Shown here: positions 43,145 to 59,507 of the stretch, piece by piece | How the letters are laid out: the number at the start of each line of letters is the position of its first letter | Position numbering within the stretch: the first letter of the stretch is position 1 | Source of the DNA: Verrucomicrobiaceae bacterium | GTDB taxonomy: Bacteria; Verrucomicrobiota; Verrucomicrobiia; Verrucomicrobiales; Verrucomicrobiaceae | Assembly: GCA_016795485.1 (NCBI GenBank) | Contig: JAEUHM010000010.1 | Location: 62,001-126,000 of the forward strand | Length of the DNA: 64,000 bases | Direction of reading: 5' to 3' | Made by a program: the position numbers and the translations under genes | The notes under the pieces: model-generated | What the model was told of the DNA's origin: nothing | The model's database searches: none | The model's input: only the letters and a program-made list of their open reading frames with translations

Positions 43145-43927
43145 TCAATGTGCCGCCACTGTGGTGTTGGCCTTCAGTGCGTTGTCAGACTGTGCCTTGA
43201 ACCACTTGTCGAAGTCTGCCTCGCTCACCACCTCAAGGGTTGCCTTCATCTGGGAGTGACCAGAACCGCAAAGCTGACCGCAGATGATGTCCCAAGTGCC
43301 TTCTTTGACCGGCTTGAACCACATATGGCTCTTGATTCCTGGAGTTGCGTCCTGAGCGGCGCGCATTGGAACAAGGGCAAGGTTGTGGATGACATCCTTG
43401 GAGCCCACGTCGACAATCACTGGGCGATTGTTTGGTAACTTCATGGTGGCTGCCACAAGGAAATCGTCTTTGCCGTTTGGATCCGCCATGTCACGTCCGA
43501 TGGGATTGTTTGGACCAATCAGCCGTGGGTCAACGCGGCCAAGCACGCCATCGTTACCTGCATAGTGGAAGTTCCAAAGGAACTGCTCGCCCACGGCGCG
43601 CATCTTCACGACATCAGGACCCGTTGGATAGCCATCCGCTTGCCTCGCCCAAAGGGGAAACGCGAACCCAACCAACAGAACGGCTTCGACAATACAAACG
43701 CCGATCTCGATGTGTGTAGTGGCGTGTCCACGTACACCGTGATAGTCCGCTTTTGGGTTTCGTTTGGCGTTAAAGCGCCAGAAAGTGTAAACGAGGAACA
43801 CGGACCAGCCAACGAAGAGGATAGCCATGAACCAATGAACAAAGCCGTTCATGTGATCGACTTGAGCACCGTGCTCAGAGGCGAGTTCAGGAAGCCAGAA
43901 GGGTTTGAGAATGGAGGTTACGTCCAT
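43145..43927 (-). CDS. coxB: Cytochrome c oxidase subunit II (CuA protein)
   Basis: The 260-residue protein has two N-terminal helices (about 26-50 and 72-95) and a periplasmic cupredoxin domain holding a full CuA site: His181 (VIHNLAL), Cys216 and Cys220 (CGQLCG), His224 and Met227 (GHSQM). It accepts electrons from cytochrome c and passes them to subunit I. No cytochrome c domain is fused at the C-terminus, so the enzyme is aa3- rather than caa3-type and needs a separate cytochrome c, such as the 47994 protein. In most oxidase operons this gene precedes subunit I; here it follows subunits III and IV. Confidence 0.94.
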   Translation of the reverse strand: MDVTSILKPFWLPELASEHGAQVDHMNGFVHWFMAILFVGWSVFLVYTFWRFNAKRNPKADYHGVRGHATTHIEIGVCIVEAVLLVGFAFPLWARQADGYPTGPDVVKMRAVGEQFLWNFHYAGNDGVLGRVDPRLIGPNNPIGRDMADPNGKDDFLVAATMKLPNNRPVIVDVGSKDVIHNLALVPMRAAQDATPGIKSHMWFKPVKEGTWDIICGQLCGSGHSQMKATLEVVSEADFDKWFKAQSDNALKANTTVAAH

Positions 43928-44353: not shown

Positions 44354-44710
44354 TCAATGATGGGCGGTAGCGGTCTTCACCGGAACTGCCGGTGCCTCGA
44401 AGCCTTCATCTTTCAATGGATCGCCGTGGGCTGAGATGAACAAGGTGAACAGAACGATGGCGAGCACGACCGTGAACACGAGAACCTTGTAGATCAGAGG
44501 CCGCTCATGATTCAAGTGCATGAAAATCAGGCAAACAAGGCTCGCCTTGAAGGTGGCCACTGCCATGCCGACGATCATGTTATTATTTCCACCGAAGTCG
44601 ATGAAGGAAATAGCCACGGTGATGACCGTGAAGACGATCAACGTAACGCCGATCTTGAGGTAGGTCTTTACGTGTGACGAAACGTCGTCGTGTGAGTTAT
44701 CGTGTCCCAT
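44354..44710 (-). CDS. coxD: Cytochrome c oxidase subunit IV (prokaryotic)
   Basis: The 118-residue protein has three helices (about 18-36, 44-63, 70-90), with the conserved FKASLVCLIFMHLNHE block of the COX4_pro family in the second helix and loop. It has a His-rich tail (TAHH). Subunit IV stabilises the oxidase core. It lies nine bases downstream of the subunit III gene. The symbol follows common usage for bacterial subunit IV; qoxD- and cyoD-type proteins are related. Confidence 0.9.
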   Translation of the reverse strand: MGHDNSHDDVSSHVKTYLKIGVTLIVFTVITVAISFIDFGGNNNMIVGMAVATFKASLVCLIFMHLNHERPLIYKVLVFTVVLAIVLFTLFISAHGDPLKDEGFEAPAVPVKTATAHH

Positions 44711-44719
44711 AGCGATGGA

Positions 44720-46045
44720 TTAAAGGAGATAGAGGAGAGGGAAGAGGAAGATCCAGACAAGGTCAACGAAGTGCCAGAACAGACCACCCGTCTCCACGCG
44801 ATTGGCCAAGTGCTCAGGGTCATTCTTGAAACGCTTGGTATCTACGACGAGGAACCAAGTAAGGACAATGGCACCAGCCAAGACGTGCAGGCCGTGCAAA
44901 CCGGTGAGGGTGAAGTAGATTGCGAAGTAGGTGTTCCACTTCGGCAACCAGTTAGACCAAAAGGCGATGTCTTTCTTTGGGTCCAGAGTGATGACTGGTC
45001 CGTTGTGCTCAGCATGGCTAAAGAGAGTGTCCTTGAAAGACTGCAAGAGCTCACCCACTCCCTCTGGAGCATGATGACTCGGGTCAGGCTTGGCCGTGTG
45101 CACTTCCATCGTCAGCGCATGGCGCACGAAGTCTGGATTCTTGTAGGGATCGGCCTCTGGGTTGTGCTCCTTGGCGTGCTCAAGTTTCTGGTGCTCATGA
45201 TGCTCAAAAGCTTCCTTCCAGCCCGCACCCATTAGTGTCCAAGCCTGAGACTTGGAACGGTCCGCCACGTCGCGAACGTCCACTCGGGTGACCTGTAGGG
45301 TCATTTTGTAATCCGTGAGCTTCCCGTTGATGACGGTGCCGTCTTTGAAACTCAGCATCGAGTCGTTGTAGCTTCGAATCGTGTTAAATGGCGGAAACGG
45401 GCTATTGTTGACTTTAAAGGTCAGCGGAGTCGCTGCTTTTAGGTCAATACTCGGTTCCTTACCGGCTTCCTCGCGGATCGAGGCTAAGCCCGCATCGTCC
45501 AAACTCACTGTCTTGCCGGCTGGAGTGGTAAACTTGGGACTTGGGGTAGTGCAACTCTCCAAGAAGTATTCTGGATCTGACTCGCGTGTGCTTAGCTTAA
45601 TGCTGGTGACGTTGTCGAAGTTGATCCAATGTTTGCCGTGATCAGGGAAGTGGCCTTCGATGATAGTACCGTCTTTGGTTTTAACTGCGATGTGGTGAAC
45701 TTTGTCAGTGTACTCGTTCTTCTTGATCCAAAGGAAAGCCAATGCACAGGCAATGGTGATGGCCATGTAGACCTTATAGGCTCCCCACTTGCGCATCTTC
45801 AAGCTAGCCCATGCCATGACGACGGTGACGGATGAACCGATGAGGACAAGGGTGTTGATGAAGCCCCAAGGGACGTTCAGCACATGGACTGGCCAATGGT
45901 AATCAGCGCCCAGACGCAGAAAAATGTATGAGGAGAACAATCCGCCGAAAAGCATGACCTCGGATGCAAGGAACAGCCAGACGCCGATCTTCGCATTCCA
46001 AAGCCCTGTGTCCGGGCGGGCAGTTACTGTATAAGGAATCTCCAT
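44720..46045 (-). CDS. coxC: Cytochrome c oxidase subunit III with large inserted domain
   Basis: The 441-residue protein is about twice the usual length of five-helix subunit III. Helices 1-3 (about 15-45, 57-82, 87-107) and helices 4-5 (about 370-400, 420-440) match the family, including KIGVWLFLASEVMLFGG, LTGLHGLHVLAG and GGLFWHFVDLVWIFLFPLLY. Between helices 3 and 4 lies a soluble insert of about 250 residues (about 110-365). It contains two similar strand-rich units, KDGTIIEG and KDGTVING, followed by a His/Glu-rich region. The insert is probably outside the membrane. It follows subunit I in the operon. Its function is unknown; it may dock a partner or bind metal. Confidence 0.92.
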   Translation of the reverse strand: MEIPYTVTARPDTGLWNAKIGVWLFLASEVMLFGGLFSSYIFLRLGADYHWPVHVLNVPWGFINTLVLIGSSVTVVMAWASLKMRKWGAYKVYMAITIACALAFLWIKKNEYTDKVHHIAVKTKDGTIIEGHFPDHGKHWINFDNVTSIKLSTRESDPEYFLESCTTPSPKFTTPAGKTVSLDDAGLASIREEAGKEPSIDLKAATPLTFKVNNSPFPPFNTIRSYNDSMLSFKDGTVINGKLTDYKMTLQVTRVDVRDVADRSKSQAWTLMGAGWKEAFEHHEHQKLEHAKEHNPEADPYKNPDFVRHALTMEVHTAKPDPSHHAPEGVGELLQSFKDTLFSHAEHNGPVITLDPKKDIAFWSNWLPKWNTYFAIYFTLTGLHGLHVLAGAIVLTWFLVVDTKRFKNDPEHLANRVETGGLFWHFVDLVWIFLFPLLYLL

Positions 46046-46087: not shown

Positions 46088-47968
46088 CTAGTGGTGGGAC
46101 TTCGCCTCTGTCGGGGCTGGTGCAGGTGTGCCAGCAGGCTCTTCCCATGAAGGGATGAACTCGCGGCCCGTGCCTGGAGGATTGTATTCGTATGGTCCGC
46201 GGTAGACTACGGGCTCGAACGTGAAGTTGCCGTGAGGAGGTGGAGTTGGTGTTGCCCACTCAAGCGTAGTTGCATCCCAAGGGTTATCGCTGGTAATCTT
46301 TTTGCCACCTTTGATGCTGATCCAAACATTAACGATGAAGAAAATCTGAGCCAAGGCGAGACCCCAAGCTCCAAACGAAATGAGCTCGTTAGACCAAAGG
46401 TAGTCCTGAGTGGTGTTCTTGAATGCCATTGCGCCGCCATCATACCAACGGCGATGGAAGCCAGCGATGCCTTGGAAAAGCATCGGCCCAAAGATCACGT
46501 TCATGAAAATGAGCGATGGCCAGAAGTGCAACTTGCCCAGAGTGTCGTTCATGTAACGACCTGTGATCTTCGGGAACCAGTGATATACACCGGCGAAAAG
46601 CGCGAAGATAGTACCTGGAGCCACCACGTAGTGGAAGTGGCCAATCACGTAGTACGTATCGTGCAAGTGAAGGTCAATAAAGGCAAAGGCGAGTGGCAAA
46701 CCTGTCAGGCCACCGATACCGAACATCGGGAGGAAGGCAGAAGCGAAGAGCATTTGGCTGTTGAACCGAATGGAGCCTCCCCACAACGAGATCATCAAGC
46801 AAGTTAGCAAGATCACAGATGGGACCGAGATCATGACCGTTGTGATCTGGAAGTAGGTCGACATCATGGTGCCCATGCCGGTTAGGTACATGTGGTGAGC
46901 CCACACAATGAAGCTCAGGAAGCCCAAGGTCAGGGCAGCATAAATCATCAATTTGTGCCCCCAAAGCGGACGCCGTGCGTTGACAGGGATGATGTCTGAG
47001 ATGATAGCGAATGCCGGAAGAATGAGCACATAAACCTCTGGGTGAGCCAGGAACCAGAACAGGTGCTGATACAGAAGCGGGTTGCCGCCACCTGAGATGT
47101 CAAAGTGATTGGTGCCAGCAACAAGGCCCGTAGGAAGGAAGACCGATGAACCGAAGACACGGTCAACAACCTGAAGAATGGCAGCAACTTCGAGAGGAGG
47201 GAAAGCCAGCAAGAGCAGGAAGCTCGTCACAAGCATCGCCCAGCAGAAGAATGGCAGACGCATGAAGGTCAGGCCCTTAGCACGGAGGTTGATGAGCGTT
47301 GTGATGAAATTGACTGAACCAAGAAGCGATGACGAAATAACGAACACCATCGCCAACAGCCACCAAGTTTGACCCGTCATGAAAGTGTTTTTCACGATGT
47401 AGTGAGTCGTTGTCGCCAGAGGCGAGTAGTTGGTCCATCCAGTCTGAGCGGCTCCAGTGGGGAGGAAGAAACTCAACATCATCATGGCGCCACCGATGAA
47501 GAAGAGCCAGAAGGACCAAGCATTCAGCTTCGGGAAGGCCATATCGATGGCTCCGATTTGAAGTGGCATGACGAAGTTGCCAAAAGCGGCAAATCCAAGC
47601 GGAACGATGCCCATGAACACCATGATGGTGCCGTGCATGGCACCGAACATGTTATAAAGGTCGGGGGAAACAACTCCGCCCGGAGCCCACTTCTCAAGTT
47701 GGTAAGTACCCCACTCGCCGAACAAAGAAGCCACTAACTCGAGGCCAGGCATTGGTTGACCTGGGTAGGCGATGGTCCAGCGCATGACCATCATCAAGAA
47801 GAACCCGAACAACAAAAACAGCAGTCCCGCGATGCCATACTGAACTCCGATGACTTTGTGGTCGGTAGAGAATATATACTTGTAAAGGAAGCTTGGCTCG
47901 TGGTGATCGTGCGCATGATCACCGCCGTGGGCGTGGTGATCGTCATGAGTGGTAGCAGCAGCGCTCAT
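46088..47968 (-). CDS. coxA: Cytochrome c oxidase subunit I (haem-copper oxidase, A-type)
   Basis: The 626-residue protein has 12 helices and the catalytic ligands: MHGTIM (low-spin haem His), HPEVY (CuB His with the cross-linked Tyr and the D-channel Glu), WAHHM (two CuB His) and HFHYV (haem a3 and haem a His). D-channel residues are kept (AIDMAFPKLN). An ungapped alignment from WAHH to WGGSI puts Leu387 where A-type oxidases have the K-channel Lys (Lys362 in Rhodobacter sphaeroides). A His-rich N-terminus precedes helix 1. The gene lies between a cytochrome c and subunit III. Confidence 0.95.
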   Translation of the reverse strand: MSAAATTHDDHHAHGGDHAHDHHEPSFLYKYIFSTDHKVIGVQYGIAGLLFLLFGFFLMMVMRWTIAYPGQPMPGLELVASLFGEWGTYQLEKWAPGGVVSPDLYNMFGAMHGTIMVFMGIVPLGFAAFGNFVMPLQIGAIDMAFPKLNAWSFWLFFIGGAMMMLSFFLPTGAAQTGWTNYSPLATTTHYIVKNTFMTGQTWWLLAMVFVISSSLLGSVNFITTLINLRAKGLTFMRLPFFCWAMLVTSFLLLLAFPPLEVAAILQVVDRVFGSSVFLPTGLVAGTNHFDISGGGNPLLYQHLFWFLAHPEVYVLILPAFAIISDIIPVNARRPLWGHKLMIYAALTLGFLSFIVWAHHMYLTGMGTMMSTYFQITTVMISVPSVILLTCLMISLWGGSIRFNSQMLFASAFLPMFGIGGLTGLPLAFAFIDLHLHDTYYVIGHFHYVVAPGTIFALFAGVYHWFPKITGRYMNDTLGKLHFWPSLIFMNVIFGPMLFQGIAGFHRRWYDGGAMAFKNTTQDYLWSNELISFGAWGLALAQIFFIVNVWISIKGGKKITSDNPWDATTLEWATPTPPPHGNFTFEPVVYRGPYEYNPPGTGREFIPSWEEPAGTPAPAPTEAKSHH

Positions 47969-47993: not shown

Positions 47994-48674
47994 TTACTGG
48001 GCGGGCGGTGCATCACCAGCCACGTCCTTCTTGGAGTAGGGTTCGAGTTCGGCCTGAGTCCAGGCGGCGGAGCGAGCTTTCTCCGTTCCGCGGACTTTAG
48101 CGACCATGTCGGGAGTAACCATGGATGCCTTGTTGCCCCAGGAGTTGCGCACGTAAGTCAAAGCATTGGCTATGTCGTCGTCGGTCATGGTAGCACCCCA
48201 ACCCGGCATTGGCGCGGGCGCGGTGAATGGCTTGCCGCTGACAGTGATTTGTCCACTAAGGCCATGCAAAACGACTCGAATCAGACGCTCCGTTCCACCA
48301 GTAGCCCAGTCGGACCCTGCCAATGGAGGGAACGCACCGGGAGTGCCCAAACCAGTAGCTTGGTGGCACCCGTTACAAGTGCCATACGCGGTTTCGCCTT
48401 TCTTCATGGCGAGTTCGAATGGGCTTAGCTGAACCTGAGGGCCGCCGCCCGAGCGTGGGTCCTGGATTGCGCCATAGGTCGGAACACTCTCGAGACCATA
48501 TCCCGAAAAACTGCCCATCTGGCCGCCGGCGAGCACCGCCGCTATGAAACCGAGGAACATCACCCACATAGGTGCCGGTTCACTTCCTGGCGGCAGATCC
48601 GCTTTCTCACGCTTGACCGCACCATGCAGGCGGTCGAGGTCAGTGTTGTCAGGATTGAAGTGTTGATCGCTCAT
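47994..48674 (-). CDS. Membrane-anchored monohaem cytochrome c
   Basis: The 226-residue protein has one N-terminal membrane anchor (about 36-52) and a class I cytochrome c domain. CNGCH at 100-104 binds haem, and the distal ligand is probably Met156 in the APMPGW segment. The domain resembles the diheme CcoP half and short c-type oxidase-coupled cytochromes. It is encoded between the CcoO-like gene and subunit I, so it is well placed to carry electrons from Alternative Complex III to CuA. Its C-terminal 50 residues are charged. Confidence 0.9.
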   Translation of the reverse strand: MSDQHFNPDNTDLDRLHGAVKREKADLPPGSEPAPMWVMFLGFIAAVLAGGQMGSFSGYGLESVPTYGAIQDPRSGGGPQVQLSPFELAMKKGETAYGTCNGCHQATGLGTPGAFPPLAGSDWATGGTERLIRVVLHGLSGQITVSGKPFTAPAPMPGWGATMTDDDIANALTYVRNSWGNKASMVTPDMVAKVRGTEKARSAAWTQAELEPYSKKDVAGDAPPAQ

Positions 48675-48704: not shown

Positions 48705-49391
48705 TTACTTCTTTGCGGCAGCGACTGCGCTCTTGGAGCCAGGCAACGGCGCGTCTTTCTTCAGGGAGAGGATGTAGTCGACGAGGAGTTCGGCATCGGG
48801 TGTCGGAATCACCTCACGGCCGTGCCCTGGATCATACTGGGTGCCCTTGAGAGGGAGTGCTTTGCCAGCAGACTGACCCTGGATGGTGCGCTCTTTGTAG
48901 AGGTGAGCGTAACTCGGAGCAGAAGACCAAGGATTTTTCACTCTCGGAGCATAGAGATGCATGTGAACGTCCATTCTATTGGTGAAACGATAACCAGCGT
49001 TCGTGAGGTCCGGGCCATTTCGCTGCACACCAAGAAAAGCGTGCTTTTCTCCGAAGAAGTCCCGCAGGACGGTTGCGCGAACAGGTTCCGGGCCATTCTC
49101 TAACTGATTCTGACCAGCACCCCTACGCCATGCATCGAGAGCGATTTGTGCAGGGCGAATCACTTGCGTGTGGCACTGAACACAGCCTTCCTTCTTGTAA
49201 ATAGTCTGGCCGCTGAGGTTGGCCACAGTCAGCGGGAAACTGTAAGCGCTGTCGAGATCATCGCCTTTGTCCTTGTTGTAAGGTATCGGCCCGAGCGTCT
49301 GGTAGCCGATCGCAGGCAGAACAATGAGGAAAAGCCAAGGGGCAGCAAATGCTGCGGCGATTCCGAAAACCAGTTTGCGAAATTGGGTCAT
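48705..49391 (-). CDS. CcoO/FixO-like monohaem cytochrome c protein
   Basis: The 228-residue protein resembles CcoO: an N-terminal anchor (about 8-28), GQTIYKKEGCVQCHTQVIRP with haem motif CVQCH (70-74), and the later block with H-L-x-x-P-R. In CcoO the distal Met normally sits in an S-x-M-P-x-Y/F motif; here the corresponding stretch reads SSAPSY (Ala158), so the usual sixth ligand is missing. It is encoded next to the CcoN-like gene and the two start and stop within 23 bases. No CcoQ or diheme CcoP gene is present. Electron transfer is possible but may use another ligand. Confidence 0.85.
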   Translation of the reverse strand: MTQFRKLVFGIAAAFAAPWLFLIVLPAIGYQTLGPIPYNKDKGDDLDSAYSFPLTVANLSGQTIYKKEGCVQCHTQVIRPAQIALDAWRRGAGQNQLENGPEPVRATVLRDFFGEKHAFLGVQRNGPDLTNAGYRFTNRMDVHMHLYAPRVKNPWSSAPSYAHLYKERTIQGQSAGKALPLKGTQYDPGHGREVIPTPDAELLVDYILSLKKDAPLPGSKSAVAAAKK

Positions 49392-49414: not shown

Positions 49415-50872
49415 TTAGGCGTTAGCAGCCTCCGGAAGGTGCTCTTCGTGACCATGCGTCAACAAGGTCGGTGCCGAACTGCGGCGGCCAAGGCCAGCCA
49501 CCATCAACAAAAGGTGAATGAGGAACCAAGCGTTGGACCACAAGATCAGCGCCCATGCAATGCAACGCGCTGCCATGTATGGCTGGCCGGAAAGCACCGC
49601 ATTCACGAATCCCTGATCCCACTGGAGCGGATCATTGATACTGGAACCCTGCTGCACGCCACCGACCAAGCTCGTCACGACGATGGTGCCGATGCCGTAA
49701 ACCGAAAACCAGAAGTGATTGCGGATCAGCCGGACGCTCAACCACTCGCAACCTGCCAAGCGAGGAACGATGTAATAGATCGCACCAAAAGCCGCCATGC
49801 TAAAGAAGCCATAGACGGCCACAATCTGGTAGCCATACCATGCGTGAGTGAACTGGAGATTCACTCCGGTGGTGAAAGCCGAGATCAGAGCGAGGATGAT
49901 GCCAGAGACAGGATAGAATAGCGCTCCGATGAAGGTGAAGCGCAGTGTAGGACTGGCGGCGACCATCTTGTGTTGTCCTAGCGTCGTTAGGTGGTGATTG
50001 ATGCCAACGACTCCAACGGGAATCATGAGCAGCACACCAGCCATTGCGCCAACGGCAGGCATCCACGCAGGGAGGGGACCACCGAGATAGCGTTGCATAC
50101 CCGTCCATCCGCCAATCACTGCAAGAATCCAGAAGCCCATCTGCGCAAGCTGAGCACTGTGAATAGGCTGGCCCGTGATCTTCGGAATGAAGTAGTAAGC
50201 CGCACCCACTCCGACAGGAACAAAGAAGAGGAGGATTAAGCCATGAACATACCAAGCACTAATGCCGGCTCCGATCGCACCAAGCTCAAGGTTGCCACCA
50301 AGCAGGGCAATGGCGGTCCACAGAATCCAAACGATCCACAGAGATGCACCCACCAGATACCAAGTGGTGATGGTGAAGCCCTCAGAGCGCTGAGTGCGAG
50401 CAGCCATGCTCAAGATTCGCCAGCAGAACACCAACAAGATGATGCCAAGAACAATCCAGACGGCTTTTGGCATCTCGAGCCACTCGATTGATGTCTGATT
50501 TCCCGCGAGGATGCTCACGATGCCATAGGTGACAGCAACATTCCAAAGGACTCCAAGTGCTACGAGCGTACCTTGCCCGCCTTTGAGTTCGTTAGCGGTG
50601 CGGCGGGCCATCAGCCACAGCGCAACGCCGAGCGCCGCTTGAATACCCCAACCGTAAACTAGGGCAGCGATGTGGGCGGGCTGCATGCGTCCGTATGTGA
50701 GGAAGGCGCAGTCAGCAATGAAGTCAGGCTTCAGAAGCTTGGCCGCCGCGAGGAATCCCATCAGGGTGGAAGCCATGAGCCAAAATGCGGCATTCGTGAA
50801 AAGGAACAGCACTGGGCCCTTTACAGAACGGTCAATGGCGGCGCGACGAAGGCTGTCGGTGTCTGGATCCAT
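49415..50872 (-). CDS. CcoN-like cbb3-oxidase subunit I homologue lacking active-site ligands
   Basis: The 485-residue, 12-helix protein aligns to CcoN through helix II (RMQPAH, His67), helix VI (YVHGL, His210) and the YYFIPK block. The CuB His-His pair of helix VII is replaced by Gln260-Arg261 (WTGMQRY), with identical spacing to the flanking W and P-x-W. The helix X H-x-H, which ligates haem b and b3, is replaced by Tyr348-x-Ile350 (in FTHAWYGYQIV). It therefore cannot form a normal haem-copper site. It likely retains a structural role in the respiratory complex. Neighbours are the CcoO-like gene and an ACIII operon. Confidence 0.9.
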   Translation of the reverse strand: MDPDTDSLRRAAIDRSVKGPVLFLFTNAAFWLMASTLMGFLAAAKLLKPDFIADCAFLTYGRMQPAHIAALVYGWGIQAALGVALWLMARRTANELKGGQGTLVALGVLWNVAVTYGIVSILAGNQTSIEWLEMPKAVWIVLGIILLVFCWRILSMAARTQRSEGFTITTWYLVGASLWIVWILWTAIALLGGNLELGAIGAGISAWYVHGLILLFFVPVGVGAAYYFIPKITGQPIHSAQLAQMGFWILAVIGGWTGMQRYLGGPLPAWMPAVGAMAGVLLMIPVGVVGINHHLTTLGQHKMVAASPTLRFTFIGALFYPVSGIILALISAFTTGVNLQFTHAWYGYQIVAVYGFFSMAAFGAIYYIVPRLAGCEWLSVRLIRNHFWFSVYGIGTIVVTSLVGGVQQGSSINDPLQWDQGFVNAVLSGQPYMAARCIAWALILWSNAWFLIHLLLMVAGLGRRSSAPTLLTHGHEEHLPEAANA

Positions 50873-50905: not shown

Positions 50906-51286
50906 CTACTTCGGCGCGGCTGGGGTTGAAGGAGCGACTGGTGCAGCCGGTGTGACGGCGGGCGCGGTGGCGGCTTGCTTAAGCTGAGTCGGGGAGCCCG
51001 GGACCAGCGCTTGGCTCGGTGCAGGCGTGGGCAGGGCTTTGAGTGATTCGACTGCTTTGGTCAGGCGCTCAGCGCTCTTGCCTTTTTCCAGGCCCATTTT
51101 AGCCAAGTTCGCTGCTTGCTCAGCCTTGATGGCATCAGCAAGAGCCTTGCGCTCGTCATCGCGTGGATTTGGGCGGGAACCCGCGCCAGAAGTGAACAGC
51201 GCGGCCAGCACGGCGAATCCGAGAAACGCGGCCAGGAACCAAAAAAAGCCTGGAGCCGGTTTGTTGACGGTGGTGGTGTCAGACAT
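50906..51286 (-). CDS. Small anchored protein between ACIII and CcoN-like genes
   Basis: The 126-residue protein has one membrane segment (about 13-32), a helical region with DDERKALADAIKAEQAANL, and an Ala/Pro/Thr-rich tail. It starts 12 bases downstream of actF and ends 33 bases before the CcoN-like gene. No family recognised. Its position suggests an accessory subunit linking ACIII to the oxidase, which is inference. Confidence 0.7.
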   Translation of the reverse strand: MSDTTTVNKPAPGFFWFLAAFLGFAVLAALFTSGAGSRPNPRDDERKALADAIKAEQAANLAKMGLEKGKSAERLTKAVESLKALPTPAPSQALVPGSPTQLKQAATAPAVTPAAPVAPSTPAAPK

Positions 51287-51298
51287 GATGGGGAAGGA

Positions 51299-52609
51299 TT
51301 AGTTGCGGACGTTGGCGGACTCAAGCAACCGAGGGTCGCGCCAGGCATACAAGCTGTGTTTGCCAAGACTGCGGAGGTAGAGGTAGCCGATGGTGCCGAC
51401 TACTGCACAAAGTGCGAGAACATCACCCACCCACGCACCGGGCAGGAATGGCGTATCCGAACCAGGGGCGGGCTCCAGACCCATCGAGTGCGCACGCTCT
51501 GGGATCACATTCCAGTAGATGTCCACGAAGTGCATGAAGATTACCCAAGCTGCCCAGAATCCGATAAACTTGGGACTCTTCTTCAATTGCTGCTGAAGGA
51601 GGAAAACAAAGGGCACAACAAAGTGACCGATCACGATGAAGATGCTGACGTTTCTCCACACCCCTGTGTTCCGAATGAAGTAGAAGCGGGTTTCTTCAGG
51701 AATGTTAGCGTACCAGATCAAGAAATACTGGCTGAAGGCGATGTATGCCCAAAACACCGTGAACGCGAACAGGAGCTTACCCATCAAGTGAAAGTGCTCA
51801 CCTGTGACCACCTTCTGGAGATAGCCGAGGGACTGCAGGTAGATCACTAACAACAGCATGGCAGCCATGGACGACCAAGCACAGCCAGCAAAATGATAGA
51901 CACCCCACATGGTGCTGAACCAAGTGTAATCTAGGGCCATGATCCAGTCCACCGCAGCGAACGTCACAGTCAAAGCAAACGGCAGCAGCACCATACAAGC
52001 AAACTCGCGTGCGTAGACTGTGTGTTTGATATCACCGTCAGCCTCTTGCTTGAGGAAATAACTACGGAGTTTGGTGGAGATGAACCAGAGGATGCCGAAA
52101 TACAGCACGAAGCGAATCGTCCAGAACGTGATGTTCAGGTAGCCATATTTGTCCACCAGTGGATGTAGGTGCGGGTCAGACTCCGCCGCGTGGTGCAAGC
52201 CTTCGAGCCCTGGGTGAGCACGATGATGACCAAACCATTCCCAGAGGGTGTTCTGCACTCCAGGGATCAGCAACGGAAGAGCAAGGATGCCCAGTGGAAG
52301 AGCCATTGTGCCGAGGTTCTCGAACAAACGACGAACAGCAACGCCCCAGCCGGAGTTGGAGGCATTGTGAAGCAAAATCCAGAAGGTGCCGCCGGCCACA
52401 AACGTGAATCCAACGAAGATCGCGTAAAGCCAAGAGTAAGCGAATCCCTTCTGCGTATCGCCATGGGTGCCGAAGGCATAGTAAGCGGAGCCCAACAGGC
52501 CAATGGCGGCCAAAGCGCCGAAGGTACCGATGACCTTGGAGGCTTTTGCTGGATCGAACTTCTCGCCGCCTTCAGGCAGGTCTTTGAAACTGACGTGGTG
52601 ATGACTCAT
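51299..52609 (-). CDS. actF: Alternative Complex III subunit ActF (NrfD-like)
   Basis: The 436-residue protein has about ten helices of the NrfD/PsrC fold and the ActF pattern in which it pairs with ActC. It lies 24 bases downstream of actE and before the 126-residue gene. ActF is an integral membrane subunit of the quinol:cytochrome c oxidoreductase. The N-terminal hydrophilic region of about 25 residues starts MSHHHVSF and contains a Glu/Lys-rich run. Large loops, such as the HHRAHPGLEGLHHA loop, lie between helices 3 and 4. No haem or cluster motif is present, as expected. Confidence 0.93.
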   Translation of the reverse strand: MSHHHVSFKDLPEGGEKFDPAKASKVIGTFGALAAIGLLGSAYYAFGTHGDTQKGFAYSWLYAIFVGFTFVAGGTFWILLHNASNSGWGVAVRRLFENLGTMALPLGILALPLLIPGVQNTLWEWFGHHRAHPGLEGLHHAAESDPHLHPLVDKYGYLNITFWTIRFVLYFGILWFISTKLRSYFLKQEADGDIKHTVYAREFACMVLLPFALTVTFAAVDWIMALDYTWFSTMWGVYHFAGCAWSSMAAMLLLVIYLQSLGYLQKVVTGEHFHLMGKLLFAFTVFWAYIAFSQYFLIWYANIPEETRFYFIRNTGVWRNVSIFIVIGHFVVPFVFLLQQQLKKSPKFIGFWAAWVIFMHFVDIYWNVIPERAHSMGLEPAPGSDTPFLPGAWVGDVLALCAVVGTIGYLYLRSLGKHSLYAWRDPRLLESANVRN

Positions 52610-52633: not shown

Positions 52634-53290
52634 TTACTGCACGCCCGCCTCCTTGCCGGCCAATTGAAGGGTGCGAATGTAGGCAACGATTGCCCAACGG
52701 TCTCTGACCGGGATGTTGCCACCGTAGGGTCCCATGAGGCCCTTACCGTTGGTAATGACGTCAAAAATGGCACCTGTTGTGCGATAAGCAGCGGTGTTAG
52801 CTGGATCATTGGCTCCGGGCTGCTGGAAGTTATAGGCGGTGAGGATGCCAAACTTGCTAGTGGTGCCTTTTCCGTTGCCAGAGAGGCCGTGGCAAACGCT
52901 GCAATAGATGTTGTAGCGCTGCTGGCCACGCTCAAGCAGCTTCAAGTCCACTGGACCAAGCTCCTTGGGGAGTCCGTCACCGTAATAGTCGCCAAAACGG
53001 CCTGTGTTGTAAAAGTCGGTGCCATTGCTGAAAGCAAAAGCCGAGGCTGTTGCTTCCGCAGCTGGTTTGGTTGGGAACTCATAGCCGATAGGGGCTGTGT
53101 TTGCCACGGGCTTGCGGGCACCAGAGCCGTCAGCAAAGAAATCGCTGGCGACCTGATACTTGACCTTGGCCTGATGATCCATGTCAGGAAAGACCTCGAT
53201 GGGAGAGTTCTGGGTCTTGCTGCCACGGAAGCCTGCGGCGCTCACAATGAGCACGGCAATGATGAAGTAGCTGAGGAAAAAGTATTTCAT
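52634..53290 (-). CDS. actE: Alternative Complex III subunit ActE (monohaem cytochrome c)
   Basis: The 218-residue protein has an N-terminal signal or anchor (about 1-20) and a cytochrome c domain with haem motif CSVCH (130-134) and a distal Met at about residue 186 (GKGLMGPYG). ActE is the electron exit of the complex, passing electrons to oxidase or soluble cytochrome c. No lipobox Cys is seen at the N-terminus, unlike in some characterised ActE proteins. The gene lies between actD and actF with gaps of 13 and 24 bases. Confidence 0.93.
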   Translation of the reverse strand: MKYFFLSYFIIAVLIVSAAGFRGSKTQNSPIEVFPDMDHQAKVKYQVASDFFADGSGARKPVANTAPIGYEFPTKPAAEATASAFAFSNGTDFYNTGRFGDYYGDGLPKELGPVDLKLLERGQQRYNIYCSVCHGLSGNGKGTTSKFGILTAYNFQQPGANDPANTAAYRTTGAIFDVITNGKGLMGPYGGNIPVRDRWAIVAYIRTLQLAGKEAGVQ

Positions 53291-53303: not shown

Positions 53304-53903
53304 TCAGATGTCGTCCTCCACGAGTTCTATGTTTTTAGCACCCACCTTCTCCAAGAGGTCACGGGTGCCTTGCTGGGCAAACTTTGGATCGCGTGCTTCG
53401 ATGCAGATCAGGAAGCCATCGTCAGAAAACTTTGCGAACTTCTTGCTCGTGAAGAGCGGGTGATTCAGGCGAGGAAGCCCAATAAGAGCAAGCAAGCCAA
53501 ACAGCACGGTGAAAGCGCTGAAAAGAATGGTGAGCTCAAACATCACTGGGAAGAACGCTGGCAAGGTCCAGATTCCCGTTGGCTTTGACTGAACGACTGT
53601 GGGATACGTCTCGACGAGCTTCTGGAGGAAGCCCATGCCCATATTATCCCGCCAAAAGTTGGTCTGGGTGATGGTCTGGAGCACGAAGGCCGTGATGGTG
53701 CCCGTCATACCGCCAAAGAAAACCAGCCAAGGCAGTTTGGAACGGCTGACGCCCATGGCGCCGTCCAATCCGTGGACTGGGAATGGTGTGTGGCAGTCCC
53801 AACGCTGATAGCCAGCATCGCGAATGTGCTCGGCGGCATGGTAAAGATCCTGCGCGTTATCAAACTCCGCCAGGTAGCCGTGAACTCGTTTGAGATTAGA
53901 CAT
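53304..53903 (-). CDS. actD: Alternative Complex III subunit ActD (DUF3341)
   Basis: The 199-residue protein has the DUF3341 layout: an N-terminal ferredoxin-like domain with HAAEHIRDAGYQRWDCHTPFPVHG-type sequence in short form (AGYQRWDCHTPFP), two membrane helices (about 58-80 and 105-125) and a C-terminal region ending in FISKFA-like and LIGLPRLNHPLF blocks. ActD is a peripheral and two-helix subunit without cofactors. It lies between actC and actE in the standard order. Confidence 0.92.
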   Translation of the reverse strand: MSNLKRVHGYLAEFDNAQDLYHAAEHIRDAGYQRWDCHTPFPVHGLDGAMGVSRSKLPWLVFFGGMTGTITAFVLQTITQTNFWRDNMGMGFLQKLVETYPTVVQSKPTGIWTLPAFFPVMFELTILFSAFTVLFGLLALIGLPRLNHPLFTSKKFAKFSDDGFLICIEARDPKFAQQGTRDLLEKVGAKNIELVEDDI

Positions 53904-53914
53904 GGGGAAACAGG

Positions 53915-55402
53915 TTAGTGCGCCGGAGCTGCTTTTTGAGAGGCGAGGATCTCGGAATCCGTCTCGCCCATGACCTCGGCCTCTTGCAGGCCCCTGTCAT
54001 GAGATTCACCGTAGTGAGGATCTGCCTCAGGTTTGACGCCCTTCACCTCACCGATGGCGATGACCGGCAAGAAGCGAAGGAACAGCAGGAACAGCATCAT
54101 GAAGAAGCCGAAGGTGCCAATGAAAGTCCAGTTATCTACCCAAGTAGCATCAAACGTTCTCCAAGAGCCCGGAGTGAGGTGACGCTCAAGCGTAGTGACG
54201 ATGATCACGTAGCGCTCATACCACATACCAGCGTTCACGAAGTTGGAGACAATGAACACCGCGAGCAAGCTCTGGCGGAAGCGCTTGAACCAGAAGACCT
54301 GCGGCGCGAATACGTTGCAGAAGAACATGGCGTAGTAATACCAGACGCTAGGACCGTGAAGCGCCCGCAGCTTGAAGGTCTGAAGCTCAAATGGGTTGGC
54401 TCCGTAGTAAGCCATGAAGAACTCCATGCAGTAGGCATAACCGACGATCGTTCCCGTGAGCAGGATGATCTTCGCCATGTTGTCGATGTGCTTCATGGTG
54501 ATCAGGTCCTGCAGACCGTAGATCTTGCGGACGGGGATCATCAGCGTCAGCACCATCGCGAATCCACCGAAGATAGCTCCAGCCACGAAGTAGGGCGGGA
54601 AGATGGTAGCGTGCCAGCCAGGGACCACGGATGTGGCGAAGTCGAATGACACGACGGAGTGCACCGACAACACCAGCGGGGTGGAAAGAGCGGCCAACAG
54701 CATGTAAGCCGTCTCGTAGTGGCTCCAGTGGCGGTTAGAACCGCGCCAGCCGAGGCTGAAGATGCCGTACAGCGCTTTGCGAATGCCGGGTTTGCAGCGA
54801 TCACGCAGTGTGGCGAGGTCTGGCACCAAACCAAGGAACCAAAAGATAAGTGACACCGTGAAGTAGGTCGACACCGCGAACACATCCCAAAGCAACGGCG
54901 ACTTGAAGTTCTGCCAGATCGCATTGGCGTTGGGGATTGGTGCAAGGAACCACACCATCCATACTCGACCAACGTGGAACGCCGGGAACAAGCCAGCGCA
55001 CATCACCGCGAAGATCGTCATGGCCTCCGCTGCTCGGTTCACGGATGTCCGCCACTTCTGACGTGTGAGGAACAAGATGGCAGAAATCAACGTTCCAGCG
55101 TGTCCGATACCGATCCAAAACACGAAGTTGGTGATGTCCCACGCCCAATCAACCGGCTGCTTCTGGCCCCAAACACCAACACCGGTGACGATGAGGTAAG
55201 CAAAACAGAAAACCATGACGCCCGTGAGGAGAACGGACGGCAGGAACAAGAACCACCAGCCCAGGGGCTGCCGGTTTTCCACGATCCCGCAGATTCGGTT
55301 GGTGATCCAGCTGAACGAGCGGTTGTTTAGCACAAGCGGCTCGCGCTCTAGCACGAGTTGCTGAGCGTTAGCGTTGGAAGCTGTGTCGGTAGCGGCTGCC
55401 AT
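53915..55402 (-). CDS. actC: Alternative Complex III subunit ActC (NrfD-like, quinol-binding)
   Basis: The 495-residue protein has about ten helices of the NrfD/polysulfide reductase fold. ActC is thought to hold the quinol oxidation site near the ActB iron-sulfur domain. The N-terminal loop and the [21 protein letters not shown] block fit the family, as does the [14 protein letters not shown] helix. The C-terminus is acidic. The gene follows actB by three bases and precedes actD by 11, which indicates tight operon structure. Confidence 0.94.
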
Positions 55403-55405
55403 GGG

Positions 55406-58400
55406 TTAGAACTGTTTGCTGCTCCAGGCGGCGATGTTGGCCGCGCCCGGCATCTTGTCGTTGATGTTGCGGATGCGTGCCAAGTAGGTGGTGCGTGGAC
55501 GCGTGTTGAGATATTTGAGCACCGTATAGTTCCGCGGGCTCAGTTTCAGCTTGTTGACGGTGCTGTCCTTGTTGGCCAGATCGCCAAACTCGATAGCACC
55601 GGCTGGGCAAGACTGCTGACACGCCGTTTTGACGCTATCAGTGGCCACCCGGAAGTTCTTCGAGTCACGCTGAGTCTGCTTTTGATTGATTTTGGCTGCC
55701 TCAAGACGCTGCACGCAGTAGGTGCACTTCTCGATTACACCGCGCATACGAACTGTGACGTTCGGGTTCTTTTGGAGCTTCAGGCTCTCACGCATACCCG
55801 TCTTGTCTGGGGTGCTGAGAGGTCCCATGTAGAGTTCGTCAAGCGGACGCTTGTTGTAGTCGAACCAGTTGAAGCGACGAGCCGTATACGGACAGTTGTT
55901 GGCGCAATAACGAGTTCCGATACAGCGGTTGTAGGCCATCGCATTCAGGCCGTCATCCGTGTGAACGGTAGCGTTTACCGGACAGACGGTCTCGCAAGGT
56001 GCGGATTCACACTGCTGGCAGGCCACTGGCTGATTCACCATCTGCGCGTCTTCAAGTTGCTCAGCGGTTGGCTCAATGTGGACGTCATCCACGCTTGGAA
56101 GCTTGTTGGTGTGATGATCTTTTTCAGTGCCAACTTCAGCGGTAGCGAAGTAGCGATCCATCCGGATCCAGTGCATCACGCGACCTTTGCGAACCTGGTC
56201 TTTACCAACGATTGGGATGTTATTCTCCGACTGGCAGGCGATCAAGCAGGCGGTGCAACCGATGCACTTACTGAGGTCGATTGTCATGCCCCACTGATGC
56301 TTGGTCTCGTAGTCGAAACCAGCCTCATTGGTGGCCGATTTCACGCCAAACTGACCTTTGTAGAAAGTCATTTCAGGCGGGATGTGACTGTCGATCCCCG
56401 TGACCTGAGCAAAGTTTTCTTTGTCCTTATGAGTGCCCTCACGGTAGACCGCGCGGCCTTCCATGGAGTTGTGCTCTTGCGTGATCGCGAACTCGTGAGC
56501 CTTGCGGCCAAGTTTTTCCACTTTGACGCCAGAACTGATCACCCACTCATCGGTAGATGCACGCAGGCCGTAACCATTGAAGCCAACCTTGCTGCCAACG
56601 TTGCCGATCTTCCGTTGACCGTAGCCCAACTGGATCGTGATCGAGTTCGATACGTGACCGGGCGCTTCAATAGCTGGGATTTCGAGGCTACCCGCAGGCG
56701 TTGTGATTTTCACCCAAGTGCCCTCAGAAAGACCGAGTTCACGGAAGGTCTTGCTGCCAATAAGTGCTGCGTTGTCCCAAGTGAGCTTGGTGACCGGATC
56801 AGGAGCCTCTTGGAGCCAACCGTTGTTAGCAAAACGCCCATCCCAAAGGCTGGAGTCTGGCACCAAAACAACTTCCGGTGCAGTAGCACTAAGCGCGCCA
56901 GCAGGTTTCGCGTTGGTCAGCAGTGCCGCCACTCCACCTGCATTGAATGTTGCAGAGGCTGGTTTGGCTGTGGAATCCTTCAAGAAACCATCTCTGAGAG
57001 TGAAGTTCCATTTTTGCTCGTCAAGACCACCAGCGATCTTTGCGAACGTCTCACGGACAGCCTCATAAGCCGCATCAACAGGTGGCGGAGGCGGGGGCGC
57101 CTTGGGGTCAATGGGTTTTGGATCAGGTCGATCAAGCTCGCGCTTACCGAGAAGCGAAAGGCAGACGTCCAACTCAGAAACACCGTCATACAACGGCTGG
57201 ATCATCGGCTGAACAATGCCATAAGTGCCGTCCTTGGTGCGCACATCACCCCATGATTCAAGGAAATGTGAGCCTGGGATGTGCCAGGAAGCCGCGCGTG
57301 CTGATGCACACTTGCGAATGCCATGATGGAAGACTTTAACGCCTTTCTCGCTGGCCAGTTTGTCCAAGTTCCAGCTCGTAGGAGCATCAAAAATTGGATC
57401 GGACTGGGTGAAGGAGAACAACACCTTTACTTGACCCGCAGCCATCGCGGCGTGCAAATCTTTGAGGCTGCCATAGCTCAGCGTGTCGTCAGTGTTCTTG
57501 TAGGTCTCGATGACTGTGCCAAAAGCGCCAAGTGCATTGTTGCAAGCAGCCGCCAAAGCCTGAATAGCCTCGGAAGTTCTGCTTCCGGCAAGCACTACGG
57601 CCTTGCCTTTGTGCGCGAGAAGGTCTTCAGCGGCGGTTTCCACCCAAGCCTTAAGAGCAGGATCGACGCTGCCAGCAAGAGCTGCAGGAGCCTCACCAAC
57701 GCCCAACTTGGCAGCGAGTGCGGCGGCAGCAGCGGCGAGCGCACTAGCACTTACCGCCTTGCGGTGATCCGCCATAGCTCCCGTGAGCGTGTAGCGGTTC
57801 TCCAAGACATAAAGGCGGCTCATCTTTTCTGCCTCGGATGGCTTTTCGGCGTTCCGCGTGCTGGTGAACTCGGCTACGGAGTCATCCGACACAGGATCTA
57901 AACCCAGGAAGTCAGCATCCAGACAAAAAACACGGGCTGCCTTGTTCAGTCGGACGACCGGAGTGACACCAGCACCCAAAAGAGCCTCGTTCACCTTCGT
58001 TTGAGAACCAGAAGCTGCCTCGTAGCGATAAAACTTCGCCTTGGGGAAGCGCTTTGCCAAGTCAGCACGTATCCGAGCCAACGTTGGGGAAACCTCGCCG
58101 CCAACAAGTAGCGCAAGACCGTCTCCACCATTCTCAGCGTAATGATGGCGGACCTTAGTCAGCGCTTGCACCATTCCACCCCACGTTGCTGGGCGACCGG
58201 AATGAAGTGGCTCGCGGCTACGATCCGGATCATACATGTCCAGGATGCTCGCCTGAGCAAAAGCGTCAACTCCACCGCTAACAGAAGGGTGGACCGGGTT
58301 GCCTGTCAGGTGTGTCGGACGACCATCATGCGTAGTCACCACCAGAGGAGTAGCGCCTCCGGCACGTGGCATTGAGGTGGCATAGAAAAGAGGCTTTCCA

Positions 58401-58672
58401 GGCACCGCCCACTCCACGCTTGAAGTGAAGGGTACGAGACGTGCGATAGGCCTGCGGCAGCTCGCTAAGCCCATGAGCCCAGCTGAGGCACCCATGATCT
58501 TCAAAAAGTTACGGCGGGAGTTCTCGCGCTCCTCGTCATTCAGCATGTCTCCGTTGGGAAACTCCGTTCCGAGGGACTTCATGAAGTCCTCGCGGCTCTC
58601 CAGCTCATTGATGCTGCGCCAATAGCGGCGGCCGGTCTTGGGTTCCTCAGGATGATTCCAGATGCGTTTCAT
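55406..58672 (-). CDS. actB: Alternative Complex III subunit ActB (iron-sulfur protein)
   Basis: The 1088-residue protein fuses a molybdopterin-oxidoreductase-like domain without Mo ligands (about 75-730) and a ferredoxin-like domain (about 750-1050). A Tat signal with [10 protein letters not shown] (52-61) is followed by a lipobox-like LASC (about 69-72), so it may be a Tat-exported lipoprotein. Cys clusters are [37 protein letters not shown] and CTYC with CQQSCP, for four clusters as known in ACIII (three [4Fe-4S], one [3Fe-4S]). It passes electrons to the haems of ActA and ActE. Confidence 0.95.
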
Positions 58673-58703: not shown

Positions 58704-59507
58704 TTAGCGGTGGCACGCCGTGCAGTTCTCCGGCGGCGCGATCTGCCAATGCTTTTTCAACTGCGGTCCGACTTCGGCTTGAGTCACTTCTTTTCCAAAC
58801 TTTTCCTCGGCCAGCTTCACAAGCTCAGGCAAGCCCGCAGCCTTAGCTCCAGGCTTGATCACCTCAGCGATCTCATCCGCCTTGGCTTTGCCCAAAAGAT
58901 CCTTGTAGAACGACTCGCGGCTCAAGCTTGCGGGCGTGTAAGCAAGATTTGTTGTCTCCGTCAGAGGGCGGAGGTTTTTCTCCGGTTCGCGGTGGCAATC
59001 CAAGCACCATCCCATGGACTGCGACTCATGCTGATAAACCACGTCCATTTGGTCCACACGGCCATGGCAGTTCACGCAGGAAAGACCGCGATTGAGGTGA
59101 GCGCTGTGGTTGAAGTAGGCGTAATCGGGCAGTTTGTGCACCTTGACCCACTGGATCGGCTTGCCGTCTGGCTTAGCGGCATCACGAACAGGCTGCAGCT
59201 TCGGTGAAGCGATCTTGATCTGTCCCTTGCCCTCGCCGTGGCAATTGGCGCAAGTTTGGTTGTTTGGCACGTTTGAGTGGCTGCTTCGCTCCCCGAAAGT
59301 GTGACAAAAACGGCAATCGAGACCGAGTTGGCCTGCGTGCACCTTGTGAGAGAATGGCACTGGTTGAGTCGGCATGTATCCCACGCGCGTATACTTCGGC
59401 GTGAAATAGTAGGTGACGCCCATCGCCACCCCCACAACGACAAACACCAGCGCAATGGCTATCTTGAGCGGCAGCCAATTGGTCCAACGCGGAAAAAAGT
59501 TACCCAT
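58704..59507 (-). CDS. actA: Alternative Complex III subunit ActA (pentahaem cytochrome c)
   Basis: The 267-residue protein has an N-terminal membrane helix (about 14-35) and five haem-binding CxxCH motifs: CRFCH, CANCH, CVNCH, CLDCH and CTACH, the last at the C-terminus. This count and order match ActA of characterised complexes. It is the first gene of the ACIII and oxidase run. No strong Shine-Dalgarno sequence is seen before ATG 59507, although GAAGCG lies just upstream. A perfect CRP-type palindrome lies 17-39 bases before the start, so its transcription is probably regulated. Confidence 0.95.
   Translation of the reverse strand: MGNFFPRWTNWLPLKIAIALVFVVVGVAMGVTYYFTPKYTRVGYMPTQPVPFSHKVHAGQLGLDCRFCHTFGERSSHSNVPNNQTCANCHGEGKGQIKIASPKLQPVRDAAKPDGKPIQWVKVHKLPDYAYFNHSAHLNRGLSCVNCHGRVDQMDVVYQHESQSMGWCLDCHREPEKNLRPLTETTNLAYTPASLSRESFYKDLLGKAKADEIAEVIKPGAKAAGLPELVKLAEEKFGKEVTQAEVGPQLKKHWQIAPPENCTACHR

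Follow-up and report, generated by a model that had tools for sequence, protein, structure and literature searches.

Why should an intact gene for a CcoN-like protein, from which most haem and copper ligands are missing, lie between the genes of alternative complex III (ACIII) and those of an aa3-type oxidase? The question arises in a stretch of 64,000 nucleotides of Verrucomicrobiaceae DNA, referred to here as the window. The gene, hereafter N, is an ORF of 485 aa with an ATG start, 33 bp downstream of the preceding gene and 23 bp ahead of the following one. The order on the minus strand is ActA, ActB, ActC, ActD, ActE, ActF, a 126-aa protein, N, the CcoO-like O, the CcoP-like P, CoxA, CoxC and CoxD, and further downstream a small ORF, CoxB, CtaA, CtaB and Sco; the intergenic gaps from ActF to CoxC are 12–42 bp. 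The principal features are as follows.

58704..59507, minus strand: ActA, with five CxxCH motifs and without the sixth haem domain
55406..58672, minus strand: ActB, with molybdoenzyme-like and iron-sulfur domains, named from its place in the act array
53915..55402, minus strand: ActC, NrfD-like, named from its place in the act array
53304..53903, minus strand: ActD, named from its place in the act array
52634..53290, minus strand: ActE, a mono-haem cytochrome c, from its motif CSVCH
51299..52609, minus strand: ActF, alternative complex III subunit named from its place in the array and without a family match
50906..51286, minus strand: small protein of 126 aa with a hydrophobic N-terminus, between ActF and N
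49415..50872, minus strand: N, ligand-lost CcoN-like protein of 485 aa, with Q260-R261 and Y348-Q-I350, H67 and H210 being present
48705..49391, minus strand: O, CcoO-like mono-haem c subunit (CVQCH; PF02433, E=5.7e-15; matches 3mk7_B)
47994..48674, minus strand: P, CcoP-like mono-haem c subunit (CNGCH, distal Met156; PF00034/PF13442, TIGR00782)
46088..47968, minus strand: CoxA, canonical aa3-type subunit I (PF00115, 419 bits; TIGR02891, 543 bits)
44720..46045, minus strand: CoxC, with a large internal insertion (PF00510 in two stretches)
44354..44710, minus strand: CoxD-like subunit IV, assigned by position
43145..43927, minus strand: CoxB, with the CuA motif CGQLCGSGHSQM and without CxxCH (PF00116; no cytochrome c domain)

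A sequence-only reading of this DNA had placed N, with a CcoO-like partner, between ACIII and aa3; that array, operon-like in its layout, is indeed seen, but the CcoP-like partner at 47994–48674 had been overlooked. The 126-aa protein gave zero matches in Pfam or NCBIfam, and a similar small ORF occupies the ActF–N junction in most loci examined. CoxC (441 aa) contains two separate COX3 matches, pointing to a soluble insertion of about 240 aa, and is likewise long in related loci.

N matches PF00115 (130.6 bits, E=9.4e-38) and scores 120.8 bits against the ccoN equivalog TIGR00780, far under its curated cut-off of 583; a true ccoN-type fusion of 832 aa, scoring 639 bits against that model, is encoded elsewhere in the same genome. 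Alignment of N by phmmer to solved CcoN (9g6b_A, E=1.2e-28; 3mk7_A, E=2.7e-27) runs without gaps across both the helix VII and helix X stretches, so that Q260-R261 falls on the CuB His-His and Y348 and I350 fall on the helix X His-x-His; the earlier reading had both registers right. Two of the six haem-copper ligand His residues remain. Alignments of the relatives within the order and of the ligand-lost representatives were also searched for His residues at shifted positions, and no conserved replacement for the lost ligands was found: H343, the nearest candidate, is shared by only 16 of 47 relatives within the order, and H386, the only His conserved in more than 60% of all ligand-lost representatives, is also present in every relative that retains all six ligands. 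The structure is predicted with confidence (pLDDT 88.5, pTM 0.90), and CcoN chains come out as its best matches in the PDB (TM 0.84–0.86), in agreement with the earlier view that the CcoN fold is kept.

N is not the isolated oddity that it had appeared to be, but one member of a family that extends through the class and can be traced back to ACIII-linked cbb3-type genes that retain the ligands. Within the order, where the named relatives are Verrucomicrobiaceae including Prosthecobacter, Brevifollis and Verrucomicrobium, an N match was found in 51 of 57 relatives, strong (E of 1e-94 or better) in 50 of the 51, and the gene order is the same throughout the loci compared. Searches with profiles through the class and phylum, together with fetched stretches, revealed the ActABCDEF-N-O-P array in much of the class Verrucomicrobiia, and the best 80 matches listed in a contig scan for N were all from Verrucomicrobiota. 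The ACIII-adjacent N proteins exist in two states, six-His, with His at every ligand position, and ligand-lost, in which zero to three of the six remain; with distinctness set at less than 95% identity, and only proteins encoded near ACIII genes counted, 126 ligand-lost and 25 six-His members were found in the class. Position 348, the proximal haem b3 His, is never His in ligand-lost N, no ligand-lost member has all three CuB ligands together, and the signatures are otherwise very varied. CoxA is absent from the array in seven of the eight long six-His loci read, and to judge from their genes these loci look like real ACIII-cbb3 enzymes.

Some individual loci deserve mention. The sampled genomes of the small-genome genus g12 of family f2 had no N match, in contrast to three records titled Akkermansia muciniphila (L063, L099, L112), which contain a Verrucomicrobiales-type N, 46–68% identical, and whose names look wrong. 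Three arrays (L133, L136, L228) have two CcoP-like genes each, in L228 one on either side of N, and in L169 and L170 (genomes G277 and G241) the N match contains one in-frame TGA.

The presence or absence of ligands is closely matched by that of a small FixS/CcoS-like gene located between ActF and N in the six-His loci. Three of these genes were tested against PF03597, one scoring above and two just below the cut-off. A profile built from 11 ccoS-like genes of six-His loci found the gene in 32 of 32 six-His loci (scores 66–103) and in none of 176 ligand-lost loci, where nothing scored above 12.2 (both totals contain some duplicate loci). The Pfam FixS model was also tried for genome-wide absence of ccoS and set aside as uninformative, as it misses the genome of the window despite its true ccoN-type gene. 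CcoS is reported to be needed for haem b, haem b3 and CuB in CcoN, and CcoNOQP is still assembled without it (PMC8267372). The loss of ccoS along with the ligands thus argues that N is free of cofactors, and assembly of CcoNOQP without CcoS implies that such a protein could still hold O and P. The claim that N cannot reduce oxygen is borne out, the b3 His and most CuB ligands being missing and ccoS absent; N lacks defining features of the cbb3 oxygen reductases and by function lies outside them.

One may ask whether N might still bind a single low-spin haem b, through His67 and another ligand, or a quinone, and so have a redox role of its own. The sequence-only reading had stressed that His67 and His210 remain, which is correct for the window; conservation among the relatives indicates that both are dispensable. 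Position 67 is His in 41 of 47 relatives within the order, which favours a haem b, yet it is Phe in the other six and His in only 15 of 54 class-wide representatives; position 210 is His in 24 of 47 and 4 of 54, respectively. In four distant ligand-lost members (L137, L138, L140, L045) the b3 and CuB sets are gone but the two low-spin haem b ligands, at 67 and 350, are retained, and to judge from these residues a single haem b could remain in them; the window has Ile at 350, other replacement His residues are not conserved, and ccoS is absent. The quinone binding that the sequence-only reading had suggested gained no support, as evidence for it was not found. A redox role for N itself seems improbable to us.

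The idea that N is a maintained gene has held up well. Its dN/dS in close pairs is 0.04–0.13, similar to the range of CoxA, and its ORF is intact in nearly all genomes. Ligand-lost N proteins do have longer branches than their six-His relatives, as a decaying relic might, but intact ORFs, the low dN/dS and a gene order conserved over the order leave such a relic with almost no credence; chance or decay was discarded as an explanation on gene order and dN/dS.

What has been conserved beside N is equally informative. With ligand-lost N, the CxxCH motif is present in O in 124 of 124 distinct loci and in P in 114 of 115, the exception (L114) appearing to be frameshifted. The distal Met of P is kept in 123 of 124 rows with ligand-lost N; that of O is found in 109 of 127 such rows, against 35 of 35 with six-His N. 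Five positions of O (Y72, Q77, T122, T125 and W141) are conserved with six-His N and relaxed with ligand-lost N, as expected if O stopped passing electrons into N. In the window itself, O has Ala158 at the usual distal haem Met, where its nearest relatives (L005–L007) have Met, and its haem may therefore be unusual. These counts bear on the suggestion that the role of N is confined to docking or assembly of ACIII and aa3, the O and P cytochromes being incidental to electron flow. The residues conserved in N are the fold-defining W, G and P, and N lies next to ActF, both in keeping with docking; incidental cytochromes would not need the c-haem motifs and the distal Met of P that are kept almost always, and we regard this suggestion as very unlikely.

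The history of the ligand loss was examined in a tree of N computed after masking of the ligand columns. ACIII-linked N forms one clade, apart from other CcoN, in which six-His rows are placed around ligand-lost ones, and the ligand-lost L175 groups with a six-His row from its own family (100/96) and apart from the other ligand-lost rows; the deep branching order within the class has weak support. A single change was found in none of the bootstrap trees, the 5–95% range being two to three changes. Since regain of six ligands together with ccoS seems implausible, the trees support at least two independent losses. Many independent losses, first suggested by the variety of signatures, are not called for, as the trees require only two. 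The four members noted above, which keep the low-spin haem positions but not the other two sets, suggest that loss was stepwise. In one genome (L236, G138) a six-His N, ccoS and a downstream CoxA occur in a single ACIII array, which from its gene content is a plausible evolutionary intermediate; its CoxA-like ORF, of 925 aa, is probably fused to CoxC. Taken jointly with the role proposed below, derivation of N from a working cbb3 oxidase located beside ACIII is the history that we moderately favour.

How, then, could electrons leave ACIII at these loci? Two direct links between ACIII and an A-type oxidase have been described: Rhodothermus marinus has a c-haem domain on CoxB, Flavobacterium johnsoniae a sixth haem on ActA (PMC5928083, PMC8552683). 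Of 58 complete ActA copies, 57 have five haems; the CuA motif is found in 62 of 62 CoxB proteins and CxxCH in 0 of 62, so neither published ACIII–aa3 link is present, and the c-haems of O and P on an inert N are the natural replacement. Our working hypothesis, which we consider rather probable, is that N is a haem- and copper-free scaffold derived from an ACIII-adjacent cbb3 oxidase, and that O and P carry electrons from ACIII to aa3. N would be a membrane scaffold with the CcoN fold that keeps the two c-type cytochromes beside ACIII; electrons from menaquinol would enter ACIII at ActB, pass to ActA and ActE, and from there through the c-haems of O and P to CuA of the co-encoded aa3 oxidase. 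The structural bridge suggested earlier is thus the best reading, although the physical complex and the electron path are what we infer from the sequences.

Alternatively, N-O-P may be an exit branch of ACIII, in which N is inert and O and P feed soluble cytochromes or other acceptors in place of the co-encoded aa3. CoxA is missing from the fetched stretch in 23 of 80 well-covered ligand-lost loci, where electrons would have to go to a soluble carrier or to an oxidase with genes of its own elsewhere; another haem-copper subunit I is present elsewhere in 19 of 20 ligand-lost genomes examined, and for ACIII of F. johnsoniae it has been proposed that the electron path divides at ActA/ActE (PMC8552683). 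The act and cox genes could also be co-transcribed without their products joining in one complex. On the other side, the window and 57 of the 80 well-covered loci have aa3 genes within the same stretch, those of the window being joined with gaps of 25–42 bp, and we hold such a branch to be doubtful as the general role. The bridge to aa3 is the reading that we retain, and on balance we also lean towards its extension to the class: an ACIII-linked cbb3 oxidase would have been turned at least twice, independently, into a cofactor-free scaffold whose remaining c-type cytochromes form a third kind of ACIII–aa3 link, and the C-type enzyme assigned to this locus in methanotrophs would likewise be no oxidase.

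A review credits verrucomicrobial methanotrophs and Opitutaceae with a C-type oxidase adjoining ACIII (PMC8498564, citing Refojo et al. 2010); in a genome paper the methanotroph oxidase is taken for a high-affinity cbb3 enzyme and used to explain growth at low oxygen (PMC6688271). PmoB is present in all ten genomes of family f12, which identifies them as methanotrophs of the class Verrucomicrobiia. In these genomes N-O-P and cox genes come after the act genes, N is of the ligand-lost kind, its six ligand positions reading SESHFV or ADAHQ[TVI], and no true ccoN was found in the ten, the best match scoring 45 bits against the cut-off of 583. The reported 'cbb3 oxidase next to ACIII' is very probably this same ligand-lost locus, its identity with that of the published strains being our inference. 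In the openly accessible papers searched, we found no prior report of a ligand-lost CcoN beside ACIII. To the sequence-only reading the analysis adds the CcoP-like subunit, the retention of both c-haem sites, the loss of ccoS with the ligands, the recurrence of ligand loss and a methanotroph annotation that is probably mistaken.

If the proposal is true, a haem-copper oxidase core can lose its chemistry and persist as an electron-carrier scaffold, in parallel lineages; ACIII has a third way of feeding an oxidase without a soluble carrier; and the respiratory inventory of verrucomicrobial methanotrophs needs correction. The six-His relatives offer a ready before-and-after comparison for ligand-lost N.

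Several known systems invite comparison. ActB of ACIII is molybdoenzyme-like and is not known to carry the molybdenum cofactor. N would resemble it as a formerly catalytic subunit that a respiratory complex has retained for its structure, although the two differ in fold and origin. With CcoN of the cbb3 (C-type) oxidases, such as that of Pseudomonas stutzeri (3mk7), N shares the fold, about 415 alignable residues and the CcoO- and CcoP-like partners; it differs in being without the haem b3 and CuB ligand sets and without ccoS in the array, in having a P-like subunit with one haem, and in adjoining ACIII. The methanotroph locus has been called a C-type oxidase (PMC8498564, PMC6688271), whereas N of the ten pmo-bearing genomes is without ligands. 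ACIII-caa3 of R. marinus and ACIII-aa3 of F. johnsoniae are alike in having ActABCDEF followed by genes of an A-type oxidase, but where those systems have an additional haem as the electron link, carried by CoxB in the first and by ActA in the second, the loci described here have a ligand-lost CcoNOP between the two gene groups.
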